Origin: an uncultured Pseudomonadota bacterium
Lineage (GTDB): Bacteria; Pseudomonadota; Alphaproteobacteria; RF32; CAG-239
DNA length: 32,162 nucleotides
NCBI GenBank assembly: GCA_949292335.1
Contig: CASEYY010000008.1
Coordinates: 1 to 32,162 of the forward strand
Direction: 5' to 3'
Below, one piece after another: positions 1-9,023 of the stretch. A program made the translations under genes and the position numbers. Each line of letters opens with the position of its first letter. Position 1 is the stretch's first letter. The notes under the pieces were generated by a model. It was not told the DNA's origin. It worked only from the letters and a program-made list of their open reading frames with translations, and made no database searches.

Positions 1-313
1 AAAAATTACCCATTGACATATTACCCACATCACTCCCCGAATTCGGTAAAGAATTTTGAGCAAGTTGACTGGTGTTGTTTACCTCCTGATTTTGCTCTAA
101 TAATTTTTTTATTCTGGCATAAGGGTTGATTGAACCTGCAAAACTTGATTTTGTATCCGGCTCTGTGAAATTATTATAGGCCTGATTTTGAATATTTGCA
201 GTCAATGTATTTTGCATATTCTCAATATTTGGAGATATATGCGAATTGCCGAAGCCAAAATTGTTGTCAGGTGAGTTGCCCCAAAAGTTGGTGCTATATT
301 GCGGATAAACCAT
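1..313 (-). pseudogene. Truncated orphan copy of the shared toxin N-terminal region (runs off window start)
   Basis: Reading the minus strand from an ATG at 313 gives a frame open to position 1, starting MVYPQYSTNFWGNSP. It matches the central part of the shared N-terminal region of the proteins at 2196-2990 and 3909-5135 (motifs TNFWG, SPDNNFGFG, ISPNIEN) and also the linker motif SINPYARIKxLLEQN of the GH108 protein. The first 60 or so residues of the family, from MDxYxKYKSPLGY to the NNQGIT motif, are missing. They are replaced by an out-of-frame piece of the regulator gene (305-422). DNA identity to the intact copy is very high: 214-294 against 2714-2794 differ at 3 positions of 81. The C-terminal domain lies outside the window. 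I read it as a displaced or silent cassette; it could still be expressed if the ATG at 313 is used, but no ribosome binding site is seen before it. Confidence 0.7.
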
Positions 314-422
314 ATGACAAATTGGCAAGATGTTAGTTTCTTTCCCTGTTTTTGATTAATCAAAAATTGTTGATATTGGATTTTTTTGAAATATTCGCGA
401 AACGGTGCAAATTTTTTATCCC
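305..422 (-). repeat. 118-bp duplicated fragment of the XRE regulator gene
   Basis: Positions 305-422 match 6706-6823, inside the regulator gene at 6588-7271, with one mismatch (position 314). The matched part encodes the C-terminal region around FAPFREYFKK and QGKKLTSCQFV. On one side it is fused to the truncated toxin cassette (1-313) and on the other to the 66-bp repeat at 455-520. An 88-residue reading frame at 202-468 runs through it but is a chimera of these pieces and not a gene in its own right. Confidence 0.9.
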
Positions 423-454
423 ATAGAATCAATATTTTTGTTTGATATAGTTTT

Positions 455-520
455 ATTACTTTTATCAAATTTGGTTATCCATGGGTTGTTTATGGAGATA
501 TGGGATAGGCTTTAACCTTA
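455..520. repeat. Direct repeat A, copy 1 (module boundary)
   Basis: This stretch matches 3297-3362 in the same orientation, with about 9 differences over 66 bp and the shared core TTTATGGAGAT. The similarity extends weakly to 441/3281 with small gaps. The two copies bracket the module that holds the candidate toxin at 2196-2990 and the membrane proteins at 518-2120. The copy touches the 3' end of the membrane protein gene at 518-1402. Confidence 0.8.
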
Positions 521-1402
521 TTCTTTCTGCAATATATTCTTATCTGAGATATTCCAAAACCAAGCCATTGCTCCATAATAGACTAGGCGAATAACTGCGG
601 AAAATAAAATATAATATGTAAAAAAAACAAATCCTGATAATTCACTATAAAAGGTTCTAAAGAAAAATACTTCACCGGTTATGCAGCTTAAAGCCAAGGT
701 CAGACTTAATATTAATTTCCCGATAAAATATTTATTTTTTGAATGTTTTTTGTGGTTACAAATAGTTATGAATATTTGGGGTAACTTAATATAAATAAAC
801 CATAAGATAAACGGCACCAAAAGAATACAATAGAAAATTGTTGCAACTGACGGAAATATAAATAACGAAACTAAAAACAGCAAAATTCCCAAAAGCAACG
901 GATGCTTTTTTAAAATCTTAATATTTTTTTCTTCCGATAACACAAGTCGGTAAAGAGTGTAAAGAAACAGCATATACAAAATAAAAGGAGAAAACATAAA
1001 CAAAAGACCTATTATGGTATTTTTTATACTTTCATCTGTTATTATCAATAAATCTTCTAGGATAGTTCTTATTCCAAAAGCTGATATAAATATAATCATT
1101 TCAGGAATTAGAAAACGTAATTTACAGCTTAAAGGGAAAAAACGAACCGTAATAATTTTGAATAAAGTGTAATAAGTAAACACAAACCAGAAATACATAA
1201 ATAAATTTTTTTCAGCAAAATGACAAATTTGGTTTAAATCTTCTCTAAACCAATGAAAATAGCTACTCCATCCGAATTCTAAATAGTTGCCAACATCAAC
1301 ACATACCGAATTATCTCTCCCCATATCAGCAAAAAACCAGTAACTATTGATAACGAGGATAATAAATAACAATTCTAAAAAAAGATATTTGGCTATTTTC
1401 AT
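518..1402 (-). CDS. Multi-pass membrane protein, candidate immunity protein (paralogue of 1515-2120)
   Basis: A 294-residue hydrophobic protein with about seven predicted membrane segments (near residues 5-23, 68-88, 98-112, 128-150, 168-205, 228-250, 258-283). No known family is recognised. Its C-terminal half aligns with the protein at 1515-2120: both have FIFP or LIFP near the start of the block, a Gly-Glu pair inside a membrane segment (G243-E244 here, G78-E79 there), and about 28 residues later the motif R-[LI]-[VI]-x-Y-[GA]-A-M-x-W-x-W (from R272 here). The N-terminal half has no counterpart there and carries four cysteines in the first 95 residues. The ATG at 1402 follows an AGGA ribosome binding site. 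It is the third gene of the module headed by the candidate toxin at 2196-2990, 112 bp after its paralogue. Its role as toxin immunity is inferred from position and duplication only. Confidence 0.65.
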   Translation of the reverse strand: MKIAKYLFLELLFIILVINSYWFFADMGRDNSVCVDVGNYLEFGWSSYFHWFREDLNQICHFAEKNLFMYFWFVFTYYTLFKIITVRFFPLSCKLRFLIPEMIIFISAFGIRTILEDLLIITDESIKNTIIGLLFMFSPFILYMLFLYTLYRLVLSEEKNIKILKKHPLLLGILLFLVSLFIFPSVATIFYCILLVPFILWFIYIKLPQIFITICNHKKHSKNKYFIGKLILSLTLALSCITGEVFFFRTFYSELSGFVFFTYYILFSAVIRLVYYGAMAWFWNISDKNILQKE

Positions 1403-1514
1403 TGGTTAGATCCTTTATCGTTTAATTTTTCCACGATTGATTTAAGTAATATTCTTGAGCTTTTTTGCTATATTCATTAATAATTGCTGAGAGTAATTAT
1501 AAGTATTGAGAAGG

Positions 1515-2120
1515 TTACCATAAAGAATGTGTGTGCCAAAATTCTTTTAAAGTGTTCATTGATGTGTCTATTTCTTGTTGAACAGCTAAAGGAATAACAC
1601 AATTTCTATCCTCTAAACAAGCCAGTTGATAACTATCATAATCAGAACTTTCAGGAGCAATACTCATAAGATATACCAAACGACCTGTAGATATCATTGT
1701 TATAAATACAACAGTAATAATGCCCCATTTGATCTTGGGAAAAGGCCTAAAAATTTGGGGCTGCCATACCCAAATCATAGCAGCATAAGCAATTATTCTT
1801 AATATCAATATGAACAAGGCAATTACCAAAATAGACAACAAAACATTTTTGGGTAAGTATGCTAAAACAACCAAAGTTAAAATTTCACCCAGAGTTAAAA
1901 CCAAATTAAAAATAACAATAAGCGGAATTTTCCAGATTAGCGAGTAATTGGTAATATCTTGCAAATTGCCGTTAAAAACAAATTTCCAAATTAAAAAAGG
2001 AACAATAAACCCAACATAAATCGGTGGAATAATCATGATAAAAAATGCAAATGACCATGGAAATATTAACGTTGATAAAAGTAATCCTAAAGTAATAAAC
2101 GTTTTCTTTTTAGTTGTCAT
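1515..2120 (-). CDS. Multi-pass membrane protein, candidate immunity protein
   Basis: A 201-residue protein with about five membrane segments (near residues 8-30, 32-50, 63-90, 92-118, 132-152) and a hydrophilic C-terminal tail of about 50 residues with Cys168 and Cys174. The start ATG at 2120 is preceded by an AGGTGA ribosome binding site. It lies 75 bp downstream of the candidate toxin at 2196-2990, separated by a strong hairpin, and 112 bp upstream of its paralogue at 518-1402. The shared Gly-Glu in a membrane segment and the R-x-x-x-Y-A-A-M-x-W-x-W motif link the two. Tandem homologous membrane genes behind a variable-tail toxin are a usual layout for immunity arrays, and a membrane location would suit a periplasm- or membrane-acting toxin. 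No family name can be given, and a transport or holin-like role is not excluded. Confidence 0.65.
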   Translation of the reverse strand: MTTKKKTFITLGLLLSTLIFPWSFAFFIMIIPPIYVGFIVPFLIWKFVFNGNLQDITNYSLIWKIPLIVIFNLVLTLGEILTLVVLAYLPKNVLLSILVIALFILILRIIAYAAMIWVWQPQIFRPFPKIKWGIITVVFITMISTGRLVYLMSIAPESSDYDSYQLACLEDRNCVIPLAVQQEIDTSMNTLKEFWHTHSLW

Positions 2121-2160
2121 TATATCACCTATAGTTAATTTTTATAAAATAATAAATTAA

Positions 2161-2188
2161 GAATAGCCGATTTGTCAATCGGCTATTC
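2161..2188 (-). terminator. Perfect 12-bp hairpin between candidate toxin and immunity genes
   Basis: A perfect inverted repeat (GAATAGCCGATT, loop TGTC, AATCGGCTATTC) begins 7 bp after the stop codon of 2196-2990. On the minus strand it is followed by a T-rich but broken run, so it could be a leaky terminator, an mRNA-stabilising 3' end, or a device that sets the ratio of toxin to immunity message. It is not a clean intrinsic terminator. Confidence 0.6.
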
Positions 2189-2195
2189 ATTATTT

Positions 2196-2990
2196 TTAAG
2201 GAATTAAATGCTTATAGTTACTAGGTAAATAGTCACGACATACCTGTGTGTTGCCAGCTTTATAACCTCTCCAAGCAGATTGAACATCATTTTTGAAGTC
2301 TTTCCAATTATCCTGCAATATACCGCTCATACCGCCATATTGCTTTCTTAAATCTGGATTAGTTGTTTTTTTATAAAAATCAATAAGTTCTTTTCCTGCA
2401 CCACCGACGATGGTTTCTGCTAAAGATGTTAAACCTCCGCTGGCTCCTACACAACTAACTGCATTATGTTTGTTTACATCAGAAATCGGAATATTATGCA
2501 AATCTTGAGCTAATTGACCAGCCTGTTGAACAGATGGCGTTCCGTATTTTTTTGCTATACCGTAAGCTCCTTCTTTCTTGTATACGTTATATATATCATC
2601 TATAGTCTGTCCCAATTTTAAACCAAGTTGCAGCTTGATAGATGAAGGCACATCCTCGACTGCATTATCCACTAAATCTGCCCCAGCATTTTTAAGGCTT
2701 ACATTTTGGTTCCGCATATTCTCAATATTTGGAGATATATGCGAATTGCCGAAGCCAAAGTTGTTGTCAGGTGATTTGCCCCAAAAGTTAGTGCCATGTT
2801 GAGGATAATTTTTTGTTATCCCTTGATTGTTGTAGTTCTGGATGATTTGGTTTTCTCTTTGTTGACGAGCCATTTGATAGGCTATCTCATCACGCAATGT
2901 GAACCCGCTGTGGTCAACACCATAGGTATCAATATGATTTTTACCGGACTGATAGCCAAGCGGCGATTTATATTTTGCATACCAATCCAT
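2196..2990 (-). CDS. Candidate polymorphic toxin: shared N-terminal region plus unrecognised C-terminal domain
   Basis: A 264-residue protein with no signal peptide. Residues 1-95 are the region shared with the GH108 protein at 3909-5135 (KYKSPLGYQ, YGVDHSGF, AYQMARQQRENQII, TNFWG, NNFGFG). Residues 105-264 are unrelated to it. The C-terminal part contains K174-HNAVSC180, a Gly/Ala-rich helix-like stretch, GKELIDFYKK (199-208), and a late D-x-x-x-D-F-K-N-D segment (227-235). Its His, Lys-Glu and Asp pattern could be catalytic, but I do not recognise the family. Two mutually homologous membrane proteins follow it. The gene starts 18 nt after a strong terminator hairpin and lacks a good ribosome binding site (only AAAGAAA), so expression may be low, attenuated or absent. 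The N-terminus would be a delivery or adaptor region by analogy with polymorphic toxins; that is inference. Confidence 0.7.
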   Translation of the reverse strand: MDWYAKYKSPLGYQSGKNHIDTYGVDHSGFTLRDEIAYQMARQQRENQIIQNYNNQGITKNYPQHGTNFWGKSPDNNFGFGNSHISPNIENMRNQNVSLKNAGADLVDNAVEDVPSSIKLQLGLKLGQTIDDIYNVYKKEGAYGIAKKYGTPSVQQAGQLAQDLHNIPISDVNKHNAVSCVGASGGLTSLAETIVGGAGKELIDFYKKTTNPDLRKQYGGMSGILQDNWKDFKNDVQSAWRGYKAGNTQVCRDYLPSNYKHLIP

Positions 2991-3007
2991 TTTCTTTTTT
3001 CTTTGAT

Positions 3008-3042
3008 AAAAAAACGCCTTGGGCTTAAAAAGCCCAAAGCGT
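3008..3042 (-). terminator. Intrinsic terminator immediately upstream of the 2990 start codon
   Basis: A 13-position stem with one mismatch (ACGCCTTGGGCTT against AAGCCCAAAGCGT as read on the plus strand) is followed on the minus strand by seven T residues. It is a textbook Rho-independent terminator for minus-strand transcription, ending about 18 nt before the start codon of the candidate toxin. No gene on that strand ends just before it. Confidence 0.8.
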
Positions 3043-3050
3043 TGGAGTTA

Positions 3051-3087
3051 AAAACAAAAAAGCGGCCTAATCTTATAGGTCGCTTTT
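3051..3087 (-). terminator. Second tandem terminator-like hairpin
   Basis: The stem AAAAGCGGCCTA/TATAGGTCGCTTTT has one imperfect pair. On the minus strand it is followed by TTTTTTGTTTTT. It sits just upstream of the terminator at 3008-3042, giving two terminators in series in front of the candidate toxin gene. Confidence 0.65.
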
Positions 3088-3222
3088 CATGATACACTAA
3101 TGTACCATACCGATATTTGTATACCCACCCGACGGGTTAGTCAATATCTTGTGAAAAAATAAATTAAAAATTGTGGATAAGTTAACCTGTACTCAATGCT
3201 TGTTTTCACCAACTACCCGCTC

Positions 3223-3255
3223 CGAACCGGCACGGCCTTGCAGCCAACAGATTTT
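3223..3255 (-). repeat. tRNA-Leu fragment, likely attachment-site remnant
   Basis: Thirty-three bases match 8747-8779 inside tRNA-Leu(UAA), in the same orientation, with one mismatch at 3242. The matched part spans the T-loop and T-stem, the long variable arm and the 3' side of the anticodon stem-loop, the portion typically copied when a tyrosine recombinase integrates at a tRNA gene. The fragment lies in a 317-bp stretch without a gene (3098-3414). The rest of that stretch holds direct repeat A copy 2 and AT-rich sequence in which I see no further gene. Confidence 0.7.
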
Positions 3256-3296
3256 TTAACCCGTGGACACAATCGGTTTATTTGGTATAGGTTTTA

Positions 3297-3362
3297 ATTA
3301 CTTTTATCAAATCAGGCTATCTACGGGGTGTTTATGGAGATTTAGGATAGGTTTTAACCTTA
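3297..3362. repeat. Direct repeat A, copy 2 (module boundary)
   Basis: This is the partner of 455-520, about 86% identical over 66 bp and in the same orientation. It lies just upstream of the promoter region of the plus-strand gene at 3415-3912, so it may also carry regulatory sequence. I see no coding content in it. Confidence 0.8.
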
Positions 3363-3414
3363 TTTTCAACTTTTGAGATTATAATTATTATAACTTATCC
3401 TTAGGAGTTTGAGA

Positions 3415-3912
3415 ATGAAAAAGGTTGTTCTACTGTTTTTTAGTATATTATTTTTAAGTACAAATATTTTTGCACAAGAACCTGAGTATAAAAGCTCAAA
3501 CGAACCTGATGTTACGCGTATGGACACTCCAGAATTACGAGCTTATGCTGAAAAAAAAGCACAAGAAATGGATGATTATTGCACAAAAAAATGTATGAAT
3601 GATAAAGATCAAGAAACAACTGCCGGAATGGCTAAAAATGCATATGCCATGAATGAATGTATGTTTGATGCCGTTAAAGCCGAAATTATCAAAGGTTTTA
3701 ATGAAGAACAACAACAAGAAATGCTTGAGGTCGTAAAGCAATTACGAACATACACTTATAAATTCAGTGAAATTTATTTTAATGCAAACAAATATTGTTA
3801 CGGACGTTGTGGAACTATGGCATCATTATTCCCTATTGCTGATGAGGGAATAATGATGCGTGATTTGTTAGCCAGACTGCTTTTTTTAAATTGGCATAAA
3901 GGGGGGTACTAA
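3415..3912 (+). CDS. Secreted LprI-like (lysozyme inhibitor-like) protein, candidate periplasmic immunity protein
   Basis: A 165-residue protein with a clear signal peptide (MKKVVLLFFSILFLSTNIFA, cleavage before QEP). The ATG at 3415 is preferred over an in-frame TTG at 3409 because AGGAG sits 7 nt before it. The mature part has cysteines in CTKKC, MNEC and YCYGRC and ends with GTMASLFPIADEG...RDLLARL. The MNEC helix, the spaced second cysteine cluster and the final helix recall the DUF1311/LprI lysozyme-inhibitor family. That is resemblance by eye, not a firm match. The gene converges on the GH108 muramidase gene, their stop codons overlapping by 4 bp (3909-3912). A periplasmic lysozyme-inhibitor-like partner beside a muramidase is what an immunity protein against a cell-wall toxin should look like, though convergent orientation is unusual for an effector/immunity pair. 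Confidence 0.6.
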   Translation: MKKVVLLFFSILFLSTNIFAQEPEYKSSNEPDVTRMDTPELRAYAEKKAQEMDDYCTKKCMNDKDQETTAGMAKNAYAMNECMFDAVKAEIIKGFNEEQQQEMLEVVKQLRTYTYKFSEIYFNANKYCYGRCGTMASLFPIADEGIMMRDLLARLLFLNWHKGGY

Positions 3913-5135
3913 TAAATAGCCGCCTCATGATGACGTTTTCGCAATTTTTGAATACGATTTAAATTGCCTCTAAATTTATTTTGGTAACTTGGATTTTCTC
4001 TTTTCCAAGCTTCTTCGCGGCGATTTAAGAAATATTCATCTAATTTAGCTTTTTCATAGTCAGTTAGATTATTGAGAGCCGATATAGTTTCACTTCCCAT
4101 AACACTAACAGTATCTTCTGGATCAACCTTAACATGTTGCGAAGTAACTTCATTAAGCCCTTCCTGTAACCATCTGGCAATTTCATCAGGACTATGGTTA
4201 ACATAGGTATCATATATACTTTCTCTTAATATTTTAGATTTAATTTCTGGAATACGATATTGCGTATAAAAATCCATACAATAAATTGTATTTGCCTGTT
4301 CTCTGGTCAAATCATCAACTTTGTCCGGATACTTACCTTTATATTCAGGATGAGCAGCAAAAAAGTTATTCAGTGTACGTTGTGTAATTCCCATATTAGT
4401 CGGTTGGTCAATTTTGGTAGGATTAGTTTCTAAACCACCTTCAAATTCACTTACCATATCGCCAAGTTGATTGAAAATCTGCATATAAGGTTCTTCTGCA
4501 TTAATATTATTCAAATCTCTACACATTGGGCTATATATACTTTTTGATTTTAATGGCATATACAAGTCTTCATCATGCGGGAATTTAATATTTTCATGAA
4601 TAATATATGTTTGATTAGCAACATCACTCATCGTACTAGGGTTAGTATGTTGTGCTAATTGGTAAGAATTAGCGTCATTGCCAATCTTTTTAGGATATAA
4701 AGCAGAGTTAATTTCCTGGTTTTGAGTATAATCATTTTGTTCTAATAATTGTTTTATTCTGGCATAAGGGTTGATTGAATTGCTAAAACTTGAATTTGGT
4801 CCTGCCATTGCGGAAGTGCCATAAGCCTGATTTTGAACATTTGGCACGGGCGTGTTTTGTATATTCTCAATATTTGAGGATATTTGCGAAGAACCGAAGC
4901 CAAAGTTGTTGTCAGGTGAGTTGCCCCAAAAGTTGGTGCCTGGTTGCGGATAGTCTTGGGTTATGCCTTGATTGTTATAATTTTTAATAATTTGGTTTTC
5001 TCTTTGCTGACGAGCCATTTGATAAGCTAACTCATCACGAGTAGTAAAACCGCTGTGGTCAACGCCATAGCTATCAATATGATTTTCACCGGTTTGATAA
5101 CCAAGCGGTGATTTATATTTGCTGTAAAAGTCCAT
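3909..5135 (-). CDS. GH108-type muramidase with shared N-terminal toxin region
   Basis: A 408-residue protein starting at the ATG at 5135, after AAGGAG at good spacing; an upstream in-frame start at 5183 is less likely. Residues 1-95 are the region shared with 2196-2990. Residues 114-140 are a linker with SINPYARIKQLLEQN, also in the truncated copy at 1-313. Residues about 222-320 fit the GH108 lysozyme family: EFEGG with Glu232 as the likely catalytic acid, then NPT..DQPTNMGIT, YDTYVNHSP, and ARWLQEGLN. Residues 325-395 (DTVSVMGSETISAL, NPSYQNKFRGNLNRI) fit the peptidoglycan-binding half usually paired with GH108. It should cleave the glycan strands of peptidoglycan. There is no signal peptide, so it needs a holin or a secretion system to reach the wall. 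Phage endolysins of this family normally lack the long N-terminal extension. It converges with the LprI-like gene. Confidence 0.8.
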   Translation of the reverse strand: MDFYSKYKSPLGYQTGENHIDSYGVDHSGFTTRDELAYQMARQQRENQIIKNYNNQGITQDYPQPGTNFWGNSPDNNFGFGSSQISSNIENIQNTPVPNVQNQAYGTSAMAGPNSSFSNSINPYARIKQLLEQNDYTQNQEINSALYPKKIGNDANSYQLAQHTNPSTMSDVANQTYIIHENIKFPHDEDLYMPLKSKSIYSPMCRDLNNINAEEPYMQIFNQLGDMVSEFEGGLETNPTKIDQPTNMGITQRTLNNFFAAHPEYKGKYPDKVDDLTREQANTIYCMDFYTQYRIPEIKSKILRESIYDTYVNHSPDEIARWLQEGLNEVTSQHVKVDPEDTVSVMGSETISALNNLTDYEKAKLDEYFLNRREEAWKRENPSYQNKFRGNLNRIQKLRKRHHEAAIY

Positions 5136-5222
5136 GTTATTTCTCCTTATCTGATAAAAAGTTAAAATTACAATGGACATCATAAATTATTTTAAAAAGC
5201 CTTGTCTATCCGCTATAAAATG

Positions 5223-5255
5223 TAAAAGCTAGCTTTTGTGTGCTATGGCTAAAAA
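5223..5255. repeat. 33-bp direct repeat B, copy 1
   Basis: Matches 6582-6614 with one mismatch (5243). It corresponds to the last codons and stop of the regulator gene, with the perfect palindrome AAAAGCTAGCTTTT at one end. Here it overlaps the stop codon of the membrane protein gene at 5249-5764. The two copies bracket a 1,359-bp unit that contains the transglycosylase-like protein and its membrane partner. Confidence 0.9.
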
Positions 5256-5764
5256 AAGAAAAATAAGCTTATGAATGTTAAGATAATGAGTCCAAGTAAA
5301 CATAAGACTACATTAGGTTTTATATATTTTACAACAATTGCCACGACAAAAAAAGGCCACAGAAATTGTAAACTGCCTAACAAAGATGTATAAACCATTA
5401 CAAAATCTGACCATTTATATATATTGCCTAGCCAATAGATGATGAATACTACGCCAATTTCACTTATTCGCCACAACAATGAAGGAGACATACCTACTAT
5501 TTTACATCTGACATAATCAAATAAAAGATATAATATCAGATAAGATATATAAGCGGCAAAATAAAATTCATTTGTAAAAACGCATGGCTTTCCATCCAAT
5601 GCCTGATATAACTCGCCATACTTCCATAGAAGAATATCACAACTATCTCCCTGAGAATTATTTCCCCAAATGATGTCAAAAATAAATGAGGCTATGGCCA
5701 ACACAAATAAATACCACAACAAGTATAATAGTGTTCGTTTACTTATTATCAAACTTCTTGTCAT
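5249..5764 (-). CDS. Four-helix membrane protein, candidate immunity to the adjacent transglycosylase
   Basis: A 171-residue protein with four predicted membrane segments (near residues 9-31, 66-85, 97-118, 122-168, the last perhaps two helices) and a Cys-containing loop between the first two (CDILLW to KPCVF). Its ATG directly follows the stop codon of the transglycosylase-like gene (TAAATG, no spacer), so the two are almost certainly translated as a unit. The stop lies inside direct repeat B, and the protein ends in a run of Phe residues. No family is recognised. The coupling, membrane location and mobile-looking unit suggest an immunity protein guarding the periplasm. A phage holin is the main alternative, but holins are usually shorter and less variable in layout. 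Confidence 0.65.
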   Translation of the reverse strand: MTRSLIISKRTLLYLLWYLFVLAIASFIFDIIWGNNSQGDSCDILLWKYGELYQALDGKPCVFTNEFYFAAYISYLILYLLFDYVRCKIVGMSPSLLWRISEIGVVFIIYWLGNIYKWSDFVMVYTSLLGSLQFLWPFFVVAIVVKYIKPNVVLCLLGLIILTFISLFFFF

Positions 5765-6499
5765 TTATTTCTCCCAAGGTTTATTATCATATATTGTTTT
5801 GGTTCTGGCTCCAAAATCATTAACTTCCATAGCTCCGGTATCATTCCACATTGTTCCTACCTTATCGGGCGTCGGATTGTGTATAGAATTTTGAAGCTGT
5901 TTTATAACTTGTACACCCAATTTAATATTTTGCTCAGGATTATAGGTGTCATATTGGGTATTCTTAAAATTTCCCCAAGTTTTGCCTTGAATGTTCATTG
6001 GCATCTGAGAACTTGAAATATGTAAATAATCAGCTAAATCATTCAATACAAACTTATGTCCTGTTGCATCTTCATTATACATAATTGCTTTTACAAGGTT
6101 GGGATCTACATTGTATTGTTGAGCATATTTTTCAATTATGTCAAGATTTTCATTTACATTATCTCGGCCATATTTTTCTATTGTATACCAAGGCATGTCA
6201 TAATCGGCGTCAGGGTTGTTTTCTATATCAATAAATAAATTGTTGCCTTGTTTTATATTTTCAATCCTTTCCTCACTGCCCATATAATTATCATAAGGTT
6301 TTATGGATTGTTGCTCAATATTTTGTTGAACATTTCTAAAATAATCTTTTTGTTTGGAATCATAAACAACATTTCCGTTTGAATTTGTTAAATAATAACC
6401 TATAGAGCCATCATTTCGAGTATAGGGAACTATATTGGCATTATTTTTATTAATAGATGTTACATTTGTTCCAAAAATTTTTCCAAAAGATTTGCTCAT
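5765..6499 (-). CDS. Lytic-transglycosylase/lysozyme-like protein, candidate cell-wall effector
   Basis: A 244-residue protein without a signal peptide. Residues 1-115 are of unknown kind and differ from the shared N-terminal region of the other two toxins, with a short β-rich-looking part (YTRNDGSIGYYLTNSNGNVVY). Residues 118-242 look like a lysozyme-fold transglycosylase: YAQQYNVDPNLVKAIMYNE with Glu143 in the catalytic position, MPMNI in the place of the usual GLMQ motif, NPEQNIKLGVQVIKQL, then GTMWNDTGA and DFGARTKTIYDNKPW, matching the end of SLT-type domains. The assignment is from motif order only. The start follows an AAAGG ribosome binding site. The gene lies 88 bp after the regulator and abuts its membrane partner. 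The 1,359-bp unit is flanked by direct repeat B. Confidence 0.7.
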   Translation of the reverse strand: MSKSFGKIFGTNVTSINKNNANIVPYTRNDGSIGYYLTNSNGNVVYDSKQKDYFRNVQQNIEQQSIKPYDNYMGSEERIENIKQGNNLFIDIENNPDADYDMPWYTIEKYGRDNVNENLDIIEKYAQQYNVDPNLVKAIMYNEDATGHKFVLNDLADYLHISSSQMPMNIQGKTWGNFKNTQYDTYNPEQNIKLGVQVIKQLQNSIHNPTPDKVGTMWNDTGAMEVNDFGARTKTIYDNKPWEK

Positions 6500-6581
6500 T
6501 GAAATTACCTTTCATCATAAAGTTAAAAATACTATAAAAATCTGAAAAAATTTATTTGGCAAATCAATGACCTATAGTTAA

Positions 6582-6614
6582 TAAAAGCTAGCTTTTGTGT
6601 GTTATGGCTAAAAA
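6582..6614. repeat. 33-bp direct repeat B, copy 2
   Basis: This copy is the genuine 3' end of the regulator gene (stop at 6588-6590) and includes the palindrome AAAAGCTAGCTTTT. The copy at 5223-5255 appears to be the other border left when the transglycosylase/membrane-protein unit entered next to the regulator. Confidence 0.9.
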
Positions 6615-7271
6615 TTCTCGGTTATTAATAATTGCAAGTTGGGTTAATTTATTAATTCGGTTGTTTTTTGTATAAGGAATTTTGATGTCTTGAGGCATAT
6701 TGTCCATAAACCATCTGACAAATTGGCAAGATGTTAGTTTCTTTCCCTGTTTTTGATTAATCAAAAATTGTTGATATTGGATTTTTTTGAAATATTCGCG
6801 AAACGGTGCAAATTTTTTATCCCGAGACTGTGCTCTTTTTTGTGCTTCTTGAGAGCGATTTATTTTACAAAGGACCTCCACCGATTCTTTCCTACTGTCT
6901 TGCCAATGCTTTATTTCATCGGTTATGGTTAATATTATCCAGTTGGTTATTTGGCTTTGCAATGCTTTTGTATCCTGCATTTGATTAAATTTACGCAAGA
7001 TAAAATCAAGTAGACGTAACTTATCTATCTCAATAACACTGCTTGCCGATAAAAGTAATTCCGGCTCAACCTTAAAATAAGCCGCAAGTTTAGAAATCTC
7101 CGGTGTTATCAGCTCTAAAGATGAATTCTCCATCGTCTCCAAGGTCTTAATAGAAATTTTAGTCTTTGCAGCCAGAGTTTCTAACGACATTTTCTTAAAC
7201 TTACGGAAAAAGGCAATTTTGTTACCGGTATTTAAAATATATTCTTCCCAAAGCCTGTGATTTTGAGGCAT
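6588..7271 (-). CDS. XRE-family helix-turn-helix regulator
   Basis: A 227-residue protein with an N-terminal Cro/CI-type helix-turn-helix (about residues 16-74; SLETLAAKTKISIKTLETMEN is the core). The C-terminal part is basic (FAPFREYFKKIQYQQFLINQK, then INKLTQLAIINN), of unknown kind. The ATG at 7271 follows AAGGAGA; an in-frame TTG just before it is less likely. It heads the minus-strand toxin block and is the natural candidate for its control, but no operator can be proven. Pieces of this gene are copied elsewhere in the island: 118 bp at 305-422 and 33 bp at 5223-5255. It has evidently been carried along, or used as a homology arm, during rearrangements of the array. Confidence 0.75.
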   Translation of the reverse strand: MPQNHRLWEEYILNTGNKIAFFRKFKKMSLETLAAKTKISIKTLETMENSSLELITPEISKLAAYFKVEPELLLSASSVIEIDKLRLLDFILRKFNQMQDTKALQSQITNWIILTITDEIKHWQDSRKESVEVLCKINRSQEAQKRAQSRDKKFAPFREYFKKIQYQQFLINQKQGKKLTSCQFVRWFMDNMPQDIKIPYTKNNRINKLTQLAIINNREFLAITHKS

Positions 7272-7499
7272 CAACTCTCTCCTTATAAATATTACCTTTA
7301 TCTTATATAGGGAATAAATATCGCAGATGCAACTAATGGGAATTATTAACTATTAAACACACATACTTATTAGAAATTTTATATTTTATAATAAGTCCTT
7401 ATTTTTTAAGGCTTTTAACAACAAATCCGTTGATGGTTAAAATAAAGCCATTATAATTTTTATAAAATATTGTGTAACTATAATAACTTGGAGAATATT

Positions 7500-7685
7500 G
7501 TGGGTATAGGAAAACAAGCAAAAATATTAAACGCTAAGCAACAAACCATGGTCTTAGCCTATTTGGAAAATACTAGATATCCGCTCAGAAACAAAATAAT
7601 GTTTTTATTAAGCTTCAAAGCCGGTTTAAGAGCTAAGGAAATATCCCAACTCACATGGTCGATGGTATGTGATAGCGAAGGTTAA
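7500..7685 (+). pseudogene. Truncated tyrosine recombinase (integrase) fragment
   Basis: Sixty-one residues from a GTG at 7500 (GGAG at 7490-7493, spacing 6) through KQAKILNAKQQTMVLAYLEN and FLLSFKAGLRAKEISQLTW. The last segment carries the first catalytic arginine of tyrosine recombinases (AGLRAKEI). The remaining catalytic domain, with the H-x-x-R and Tyr boxes, is missing: the frame ends after CDSEG, where sequence from a WYL regulator gene begins. It is consistent with the relic integrase of an element inserted at the nearby tRNA-Leu. Confidence 0.75.
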
Positions 7686-8562
7686 ACGATATTGCAGAAA
7701 AATATCAAGTTTCTCGTCGCACGGCGGAACGTATGCGTGATATGATTATAACTCGTTTCCCGCAAGCAGAAGAAATTATTAGCGAAAACAATCAAAAACG
7801 CTGGTATATTCCGCAAGGCGTATTAAAGGATTTTATAAACTTTTCTGCCGAAGAATTATCGGCGTTAGAAACAGCTAAAGAGTTGTTTGAAAATAAGCAA
7901 ATGGCTGAAAAGAGTAGGGCACTTGAGAAAATTATAGCTAAAATCAGAGCTAGTATAAAACCCGATGCAATCAGACGGATTGAACCCGATACCGAAGCCT
8001 TGCTTGAAGCAGAAGGCTTTATTTGTCACCCCGGACCAAAGCTTGTAATAGATGAAAAGATTATAAATGCAATTCGGCAAGCTATTTTAGAATATCATCA
8101 AATTAGAATTAAGTATTATAACAAGAATACAGGTAAAATCAGTACCAATACCCTTAACCCTTATGGTTTTCTTTATGGTGAGCGCAATCACTACTTAGTT
8201 GCTCATCATGCTGACGGATATTATGGAAACGAAGTTCACAATTTTATTTTGAGCAATATTCGAGAAGTGGAAATATTAAACAGTGAATTGAAAACTTGCC
8301 TGATTTTAACTTGCAGAAATACGCCGAAGAATCATTTGGTGCTTATCACGAAGAGCCTTTCGAAGTTGAATGGTTGTTTGATAAAGAAGTATCGGAAGAA
8401 GCATCTCACTATATTTTTCATCCTACGCAAGCCATGATTAAAAATCCGGACGGAACATTAACCGTTAAATTCAGAGCCGGTGGCAGATTAGAAATGGATT
8501 GGCATCTCTACACATGGGGCAATCATGTGAAAGTCATTAAACCGGAAAATTGGTTATCTTGA
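7676..8562 (+). pseudogene. WYL-domain transcriptional regulator, 5'-truncated and frameshifted
   Basis: From about 7676 the second frame reads RRLNDIAEKYQVSRRTAERM, the helix-turn-helix of a WYL-family regulator whose first residues are lost at the junction with the integrase fragment. It continues through a helical linker and the WYL domain (IRIKYYNKNTGK, LNPYGFLYGERNHYLVAHH). Near 8285-8297 the frame breaks by one base. The other frame (8296-8562) then completes the family's usual end: LPDFNLQKYAEESFG, EVEWLFD, HPTQ, GRLEMDWHLYTWG, KVIKPENWL. Restoring one base would give a continuous C-terminal region, so this is a recent-looking pseudogene unless it is a sequencing error. Confidence 0.8.
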
Positions 8563-8680
8563 GTAATTGTCCATACCAAATAAGCTAAAATCACCATAAA
8601 ACATACGATAAAGACAGCTAAAATACTCTAAAAAAGTGGGACTATGGTGGGACAAATTTTTAATTTTATATCTTGAAATA

Positions 8681-8723
8681 AAAAACAAGGCTTTGAGCAA
8701 AATTGCTGAAAGCCTTTGTTTTT
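8681..8723 (-). terminator. Terminator of tRNA-Leu
   Basis: The stem AAAAACAAGGCTTT/AAAGCCTTTGTTTTT encloses a 14-nt middle part. On the minus strand it is followed by a T-run. It lies a few bases downstream of the tRNA 3' end. Confidence 0.75.
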
Positions 8724-8727
8724 AAAG

Positions 8728-8814
8728 TGGTGCGCTAGGCCGGAATCGAACCGGCACGGCCTTGCGGCCAACAGATTTTAAGTCTGCAGCGTCTACCAGT
8801 TCCGCCACAAGCGC
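8728..8814 (-). tRNA. tRNA-Leu (anticodon UAA)
   Basis: The minus strand folds as a class II tRNA: acceptor GCGCTTG with CTAGCGC and an encoded ACCA end; D-arm GGCGGAACTGGTAGACGC; anticodon stem GCAGA/TCTGT with loop CTTAAAA, giving anticodon UAA; long variable arm TGGCCGCAAGGCCGT; and T-arm GCCGG TTCGATT CCGGC. The acceptor stem has one U-U mismatch. A 33-bp part (8747-8779) recurs at 3223-3255. The gene separates the island from psd-pssA and is the likely integration site of the island. Confidence 0.95.
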
Positions 8815-8828
8815 ATAATCTAGACAAC

Positions 8829-8857
8829 CTTATACTAACCTTTTTATTTAATTGCAA
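8829..8857 (-). promoter_or_regulatory. Promoter of tRNA-Leu
   Basis: On the minus strand, TTGCAA (8852-8857) and TATAAG (8829-8834) are separated by 17 bp, placing the start of transcription near 8822, some 8 nt before the mature 5' end. The rest of 8858-9023, up to psd, shows TTGACA at 8976 and AT-rich sequence, but no pair I can call for the plus strand. Confidence 0.6.
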
Positions 8858-9023
8858 GCCTATTTTTTCTCTTTATCATCTTATTTTTGATTAAATGGTT
8901 TTTGGGGTTGTTTTTTTTTGTCTTTTGTGCTTCTCTTACCTTGTTATAAATTAAACATCGGTGAAAAAACGACAGTTGACAGCGTCACGGTTTTTTTGAC
9001 CTTAAACTTATAAGGATAGTAAT

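Follow-up and report, generated by a model that had tools for sequence, protein, structure and literature searches.

The stretch considered here (contig CASEYY010000008.1 of assembly GCA_949292335.1, GTDB lineage RF32; CAG-239, below the window) is an entire contig of 32,162 nucleotides (C8 in our numbering) from the 1.48 Mb draft genome (G000) of an uncultured alphaproteobacterium. Its left part carries an array of genes in which one and the same N-terminal region of about 95 residues, called the marker module below, precedes different C-terminal domains. The initial annotation, drawn from the letters alone, had counted three loci encoding this region; the count stands for 2196-2990 and 3909-5135, whose products share 80% identity over their first ~96 residues, and fails for 1-313, where a remnant is left. 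A small secreted or membrane partner had been placed beside each complete toxin, and both partners are present, at 3415-3912 on the plus strand and at 1515-2120 on the minus strand. The features on which the argument leans are the following (lengths in amino acids, aa; TM, transmembrane).

1-313, minus strand: marker remnant, module residues ~62-95 (206-307) and linker, ended by the contig edge
292-423, minus strand: fragment of an array-head gene adjoining the remnant, with 86% identity to the 6588-7274 protein over its residues 151-194
1515-2120, minus strand: partner of effector 2, 201 aa, multi-TM, lying 3' of it, predicted membrane immunity protein
2196-2990, minus strand: effector 2, 264 aa, marker, helical linker and SAA/Lipocone-like C-terminus
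2205-2552, minus strand: residues ~147-262 of effector 2, SAA/Lipocone-like domain assigned by residue pattern, VIA look and profile comparison
2703-2990, minus strand: marker module of effector 2 (A1 profile, E 2.1e-51)
3415-3912, plus strand: partner of effector 1, 165 aa, convergent, hydrophobic Sec-like N-terminus, predicted periplasmic immunity protein
3909-5135, minus strand: effector 1, 408 aa, marker, linker and GH108 muramidase-like C-terminus
4194-4457, minus strand: GH108 domain of effector 1, residues 227-314 (PF05838, E 1.8e-11)
4851-5135, minus strand: marker module of effector 1 (A1 profile, E 3.8e-52)

For effector 1 the start at 5135 was preferred over a longer open reading frame (ORF) reaching 5183 because AGGAG lies a few bases 5' of this ATG. 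The GH108 domain suggested earlier for this protein was recovered by Pfam with 44.8 bits against a curated cut-off of 21.2, and the match of the protein to a PHROG endolysin (5.7e-20) is confined to residues 212-401. At the contig edge the fragment 292-423 sits 5' of the remnant in the sense of the genes, the intact counterpart being the gene at 6588-7274; since only marker residues ~62-95 persist with this fragment alongside, 1-313 is to be taken as a deleted copy with its C-terminus beyond the contig end. Profile search of the same genome revealed a further full copy of the marker on contig C46 (3.1e-49), joined there to a Tlde1-type C-terminus (2.5e-10).

The N-terminal region had been described as unrecognised, and the libraries tested (Pfam, PHROGs and PDB) agree: 19 diverse copies gave no credible match in Pfam or PHROG, including the PAAR/MIX/FIX/Rhs-type Pfam domains (which of these types have Pfam models was left unchecked), and profiles built from 19 and 71 copies found nothing in PDB (best E 0.26 and 0.7). 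Nor does the region match phage structural or endolysin domains in PHROG, viral contigs or BFVD, an absence on which the initial annotation had made its reading depend. As a protein the module is well conserved: an alignment of 71 copies has 19 invariant columns, and each of the remaining 70 shows 54-82% identity to the window copy. Because residues 1-45 contain no hydrophobic stretch in any of 116 full copies (highest 12-residue mean 0.25 on the Kyte-Doolittle scale), a Sec signal or TM segment is unlikely. The model predicted from 71 sequences is of moderate confidence (predicted local distance difference test, pLDDT, 72.7) and mostly extended with one long helix; Foldseek matched it neither in PDB nor in BFVD, which is not proof of a new fold. 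In the open-access literature no paper describing the module was found, which likewise is not proof that none exists.

The marker is distributed over 65 of the 153 genomes of one alphaproteobacterial family, in 6 of its 16 genera, with up to 20 matches per genome, fragments included. In a class-wide sample of 385 genomes the window's own genome was the sole match, the four other family members drawn being negative. A collection of one genome per species (84,980 species) returned 147 relatives, the best 80 of which (79 loci) were used; these 80 records are metagenome-assembled genomes of uncultured Alphaproteobacteria, proteobacterium or Pseudomonadota, one of them labelled Azospirillum, with several originating from rumen or other gut parts of deer, yak or sheep and one from horse faeces. 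Chance similarity was ruled out by full-length matches of 1e-40 to 1e-52 in many genomes. Neither the viral contigs nor the plasmids searched contained a relative. The single phage-collection record with the module, MT838567.1 (L192, "Bacteriophage sp."), is an unannotated scaffold marked "UNVERIFIED" from human faeces; its ORF list holds array-type genes only, with no phage gene seen, so that it looks like a fragment of a bacterial toxin array, and its origin therefore suggests that the system occurs in the human gut too.

Joining of the module to different C-termini rather than to one single domain, as proposed initially, became evident from the whole set of loci. In the fetched loci and the window 219 pieces of the marker were counted; 125 are full, 55 are cut short at the N-side and 39 at the C-side, some truncations being due to contig ends or frameshifts. 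C-termini of at least 70 aa number 158, the two locus sets overlapping, and 104 remain distinct at 98% identity. After dropping 5 ended by a contig edge, clustering by the last 115 residues sorted the 99 complete ones into 19 clusters, six of them singletons. Pfam (E <= 0.01) assigned to the 104 sequences the domains SAA (19), GH108 (14), Tlde1 (8), PG_binding_3 (8), YkuD (4), VgrG3-like (2), PBECR2 (2), phage lysozyme (2), SLT (2), pesticin (1) and a few others, of which PBECR2, pesticin, phage lysozyme, one Tlde1 and one SLT stay below the Pfam cut-off in individual scans; NCBIfam recognised a holin-associated muramidase in 14 of the 104. In cluster T1, to which effector 1 belongs, every member scanned singly with Pfam carries GH108. 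Most of the recognised C-termini would thus attack the cell envelope. Among the few which may act inside the cell is that of a 773-aa marker protein (L044:2564-4885, and its relatives), with a PBECR2-like nuclease match at 5.6e-5, below the cut-off.

For effector 2 the initial annotation had left the C-terminus as an unknown domain, and the Pfam scan of the 264-aa protein, void of matches, concurs; yet the domain appears SAA/Lipocone-like, an assignment made because residue pattern, VIA look and profile comparison point the same way. H175, E201, D204 and D231 are invariant in 30 alignment rows, the SAA-like catalytic residues are retained in 36-38 of 38 sequences, and the protein has the Lipocone arrangement of a His in helix H2, a Glu in H3, an Asp in H4 and a polar residue closing H3. 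The profile of the window subfamily taken alone did not match SAA in PDB; aligned by hhalign to the SAA-positive subfamily, which itself matches human SAA1 at 2e-19, it gave 93.3% and E 2.6e-7. The structural model of effector 2 (mean pLDDT of the whole model 68.4, predicted template modelling score 0.52) showed an SAA fold match in the VIA look, while plain Foldseek gave no match with E <= 0.001, and SAA did not figure in the 50 rows listed. The sNxxGR motif of H4, typical of the SAW clade, is present in the KYKH subfamily and missing from the window protein, for which reason the latter is classed as SAA/Lipocone-like and not as prok-SAA proper.

Prok-SAA Lipocone toxins have immunity proteins predicted at the membrane or in the periplasm, and the accessible part of their description names type IV secretion system (T4SS) VirD4-binding, PAAR, WXG/LXG, type IX secretion and MuF modules at their N-termini (PMC12419801). 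The type represented by effector 2 and the 19 of 104 C-termini matching Pfam SAA resemble these toxins, as far as that part goes, in the His/Glu/Asp catalytic pattern and in immunity proteins predicted at the membrane or periplasm; the window type differs by lacking sNxxGR and possessing two extra conserved Cys, and the marker module is not among the N-terminal modules named there (PMC12419801).

Partner genes were compared over every ORF of at least 75 aa from ATG, since simple gene calling missed membrane genes. A non-marker ORF within 450 nt downstream was found for 88 of the 99 effectors, the other 11 being left out, and with several ORFs in range the nearest one belonging to a family of two or more was taken. 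Of 139 effector pairs followed by the same downstream family, 118 agreed in C-type, where shuffling gave 21.6 +/- 4.7 (maximum 46 in 2000 shuffles); once the largest cluster was removed, 58 of 71 pairs agreed against 6.7 +/- 2.5 (maximum 17), with the significance overstated by the shuffles because the species are related and the pairs are not independent. Upstream ORFs, serving as control, gave 25 of 91 pairs against 15.8 +/- 6.1 (maximum 50). The family of the 1515-2120 protein (downstream family 4) stands behind C-termini of the SAA-like cluster T0 in 8 of 8 cases, and all 3 members of the family of the 3415-3912 protein (downstream family 14), which overlaps the end of effector 1 by 4 nt, adjoin cluster T1 C-termini. 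GH108 and lysozyme types have partner families with one hydrophobic N-terminal stretch encoded on the opposite strand, for GH108 convergent signal-bearing proteins of ~150-165 aa such as 3415-3912. The SAA-like, Tlde1, T4, T5 and T6 types go with mostly multi-TM families: the SAA-like partners have 2 to 6 TM segments, as in 1515-2120, and the Tlde1 partner is a 115-aa 2-TM protein (5 of 6 members of that family). By genomic association the toxins thus have type-specific adjacent genes of putative immunity function.

By their sequences, N- and C-terminal parts are exchanged as cassettes by recombination. Over 68 full-length effectors the mean identity of N-termini is 66.0% for the same C-type (343 pairs) vs 66.7% for different C-types (1935 pairs); there are pairs with N-termini 98.9% and C-termini only 21.7% identical, and reverse pairs with 65% identity in N and 94% in C.

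The polymorphic toxin layout proposed initially is hence borne out by the shared module, the many C-termini and the partners specific for C-type. Judged from sequence, the system probably represents polymorphic antibacterial toxin-immunity arrays with a lineage-specific N-terminal module, confined to one family of gut alphaproteobacteria. Module sharing, diversity of C-types, specificity of partners, N/C exchange and lineage restriction are read directly from the compared loci; we infer the antibacterial action, the immunity function, the periplasmic site of action and the role of the module as a trafficking or targeting signal. In the proposed scheme the ~95-residue module would mark every protein for one common trafficking route and would be followed by a variable linker and an exchangeable C-terminal toxin. 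Most recognised toxins would hit the envelope, these being muramidases, the Tlde1 domain and the SAA/Lipocone domain, the last predicted to cleave lipid-linked head groups, and the toxin-specific neighbouring membrane or secreted protein would shield producer cells and their kin. Recombination would exchange one toxin-immunity cassette for a new one behind the module, leaving truncated copies such as 1-313.

Conserved N-termini with exchangeable C-terminal toxins and immunity genes characterize MIX, FIX, RIX and WHIX proteins of type VI secretion systems (T6SS) and LXG proteins of type VII systems. TANFOR proteins are marker-defined polymorphic effectors of Bacteroidetes (PMC7073777). The arrays share this organization with all of them, for TANFOR to the extent covered by the accessible part of that source, but the present N-terminus matches no family tested, is found only in one alphaproteobacterial family, and is not tracked by any secretion machine tested. 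Tlde1, VgrG3-like and pesticin-like envelope toxins contribute the same domain families to the C-terminal pool, whereas here these stand behind another N-terminal module and TssC has no match in the 20 genus genomes tested. Colicin-type bacteriocins combine periplasm-acting toxins with membrane or periplasmic immunity and a kin-limited distribution; in these respects and in size the arrays resemble them, here as predicted from sequence.

Several observations weigh against this reading. No domain or toxin fold was recognised in several clusters, among them T4, T5 and T6, and in the lysozyme-like cluster T3 half of the members (3 of 6) gave no Pfam match, the assignment of T3 to lysozymes resting on below-cut-off pesticin and phage-lysozyme matches in two members. 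To the dependence between pairs mentioned above is added a terminator-like hairpin (14 pairs and a T-run, 3013-3043, minus strand) that ends ~20 bases before effector 2 starts, owing to which this copy may be silent or attenuated. Further observations concern delivery: in the search for a co-occurring secretion system, suggested initially, no tested system occurred throughout the marker genomes or showed a positive association with the marker. TssC and VirB10 were sought in 20 genomes of the genus, DotB, contractile sheath and secretin in 36, FlhA in 153 and DotH in the own genome only, all of them drafts, in which the absence of a gene is not proof. TssC was found in 0 of 20, the own genome included, with the E. 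coli control positive. DotB has true matches in 25 of 36 genomes, a 26th listed genome not being counted since its sole match (31%) is to a larger ATPase; it occurs in 13 of 22 marker-positive vs 12 of 14 marker-negative genomes (Fisher p 0.14). The sheath was detected in 4 of 36 and secretin in 24 of 36 (13 of 22 marker-positive vs 11 of 14 marker-negative), neither of them in the own genome. FlhA had no match in 31 of 65 marker-positive genomes; these 31 belong to three genera other than those with FlhA, and several of them are rated 100% complete. VirB10, found in 14 of 20 genomes, and DotB are without a match in the own genome, and DotH was absent there as well (best E 0.07). On the patchy or missing matches in these drafts, T6SS, T4SS, sheath, secretin and flagellar export were rejected as a universal route.

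That a known machine for contact-dependent injection, be it a T6SS, a T4SS or a contractile tail, takes the effectors as cargo, with the N-terminus as a signal like MIX, FIX or RIX, appears unlikely, despite the overlap of VgrG3-like muramidase, Tlde1, SAA and PBECR2 domains with the repertoire of T6SS and other polymorphic effectors and despite the Dot/Icm-like T4SS in those 25 genomes of the genus. This system is not positively associated with the marker, and G000, G004 and G010 have no TssC, VirB10, DotB, sheath or secretin match, yet carry 4, 5 and 10 marker matches; if the drafts can be trusted, none of these machines therefore serves as the shared route. Type III secretion signals are polar, extended and helical, as is the N-terminus here, and FlhA was matched in the own genome, just as in each of the 34 genomes that carry the marker in three genera, all 22 of the window's genus among them. 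Flagellar type III export has been reported, in the part of the study available, for the bacteriocin carocin S1 (PMC2744703). Given the 31 marker-positive genomes devoid of FlhA matches, export through the flagellar apparatus is nevertheless quite improbable. For export and entry we favour two candidate routes: colicin-like release followed by uptake into close kin via a conserved receptor that the module would read, or else an exporter of ATP-binding cassette/TolC type. It is possible, though less likely than not, that the module specifies a family-specific delivery route of no known injection machine, by which a large exchangeable pool of periplasm-acting toxins would pass from one gut alphaproteobacterium to its close kin, with the array-head protein, named "KYAPFR" after its conserved C-terminal region, as dedicated regulator or adaptor.

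Further alternatives concern the role of the module and the targets or origin of the effectors. The module could be a mere recombination-friendly conserved 5' segment, useful for cassette swapping or regulation and having no part in trafficking, as the common remnants and truncated copies and the frequent exchange might suggest; its conservation as protein and its location at the effector N-terminus make this unlikely. Effectors aimed at eukaryotes, either rumen protists or the host, would agree with the rumen and other gut sources of the records and with SAA being an animal protein too, but bacterial targets and self-protection are indicated by the peptidoglycan hydrolases and by membrane or secreted partners that are specific for C-type, and we regard such targets as very improbable. 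The least probable origin is that of phage or prophage lysis cassettes, where muramidases would be endolysins or virion lysins and the rest passengers. In its favour are the PHROG endolysin match of the GH108 part, the holin-associated muramidases of NCBIfam, the one phage-collection record and one array ORF with a Phage_Mu_F match; against it, viral contigs contain no relatives, many C-types are not lysins, inspection by eye of the 45 commonest neighbour families showed no phage structural gene, and the sole phage record has the shortcomings described. As the main explanation phage origin was rejected on account of absent viral relatives, non-phage neighbours and the lack of a PHROG match for the marker.

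If the preferred reading of toxin-immunity arrays is right, a marker-defined polymorphic toxin class would be added for uncultured alphaproteobacteria of gut and rumen. Its pool is large and mostly envelope-targeting; many members lie beside a likely immunity gene, and some of the domains belong to no recognised family. The SAA/Lipocone toxins with their natural partner genes may be useful for testing the lipid-head-group activity proposed for the superfamily. With three marker-positive genomes free of matches to the five machine components named above, the arrays make the question of export and entry into a rival concretely testable.

Further features surround the effectors in the window.

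518-1402, minus strand: 294-aa membrane protein, further immunity-like gene (neighbour family 11)
5249-5764, minus strand: membrane protein of 171 aa, predicted to be the partner of the SLT gene (neighbour family 6, 6 of 80 records)
5765-6499, minus strand: SLT gene (PF01464, 2.1e-6), third toxin-like gene, with a different N-terminus and no marker
6588-7274, minus strand: array-head gene, helix-turn-helix-like N-terminus and conserved "KYAPFR" C-terminal region
7470-7685: integrase fragment (phrog_216, 5.2e-11), near the low-GC edge
8728-8814: tRNA-Leu, near the low-GC edge

The array-head protein, with a match to HTH_19 at 3.2e-5, below the Pfam cut-off, may be a regulator or adaptor. Its family is the commonest neighbour of the marker (19 of 80 array records, at a median of 114 bp from the marker gene) and within the genus 18 of 22 marker-positive genomes possess it (G016 included, with a weak match of 3.4e-5) vs 3 of 14 marker-negative ones (Fisher p 5e-4). 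The three marker-negative genomes keeping it, G005, G022 and G026, may hold leftovers of lost arrays, or the gene may have an independent role there. The family of the 518-1402 protein recurs in 5 of 80 array records at a median distance of 190 bp from the marker gene. The immunity-like gene of effector 2 has the region's best match to a promoter (2149-2178); overall site numbers are not above those of shuffled sequence.

A Dot/Icm-like type IVB secretion locus of gut alphaproteobacteria was encountered in L158, L159 and L160. A Pfam scan of L158 alone gave VirB8 (1.9e-17), CagX (1.5e-11) and a DotB-type ATPase (4e-20), and the locus encodes two proteins of more than 1,100 aa, one with beta-flower repeats. 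DotB and secretin are both missing from G000, G004, G010, G013, G020, G026, G030, G032 and G058, a pattern that resembles joint loss in a sub-lineage, and also from the draft G029; G016 is without DotB only, and G001 and G011 without secretin only.

The toxin domains of the pool also occur apart from the marker. The C-terminal type of the SLT gene is that of cluster T11, which is found behind the marker as well, and 65 further ORFs have toxin domains of the pool and no marker, 24 of them distinct and with at least 45 residues before the domain. Some of these 24 have other short N-terminal regions in common, and the SLT gene is built alike. A second N-terminal module, "RTNPxxGQSxYYYxxP ... IDVxxxTPNP", accompanies the pool's toxin domains in L029:7151-7834, L036:6143-6805, L129:3927-4910 and L142:5418-6566, where in the last of these it is followed by the Phage_Mu_F match (1.2e-7). 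Within the window positions 1-9000 have a GC content of ~0.29-0.36 vs 0.38-0.46 further on, and this part is possibly a genomic island whose edge is marked by the integrase fragment and tRNA-Leu.

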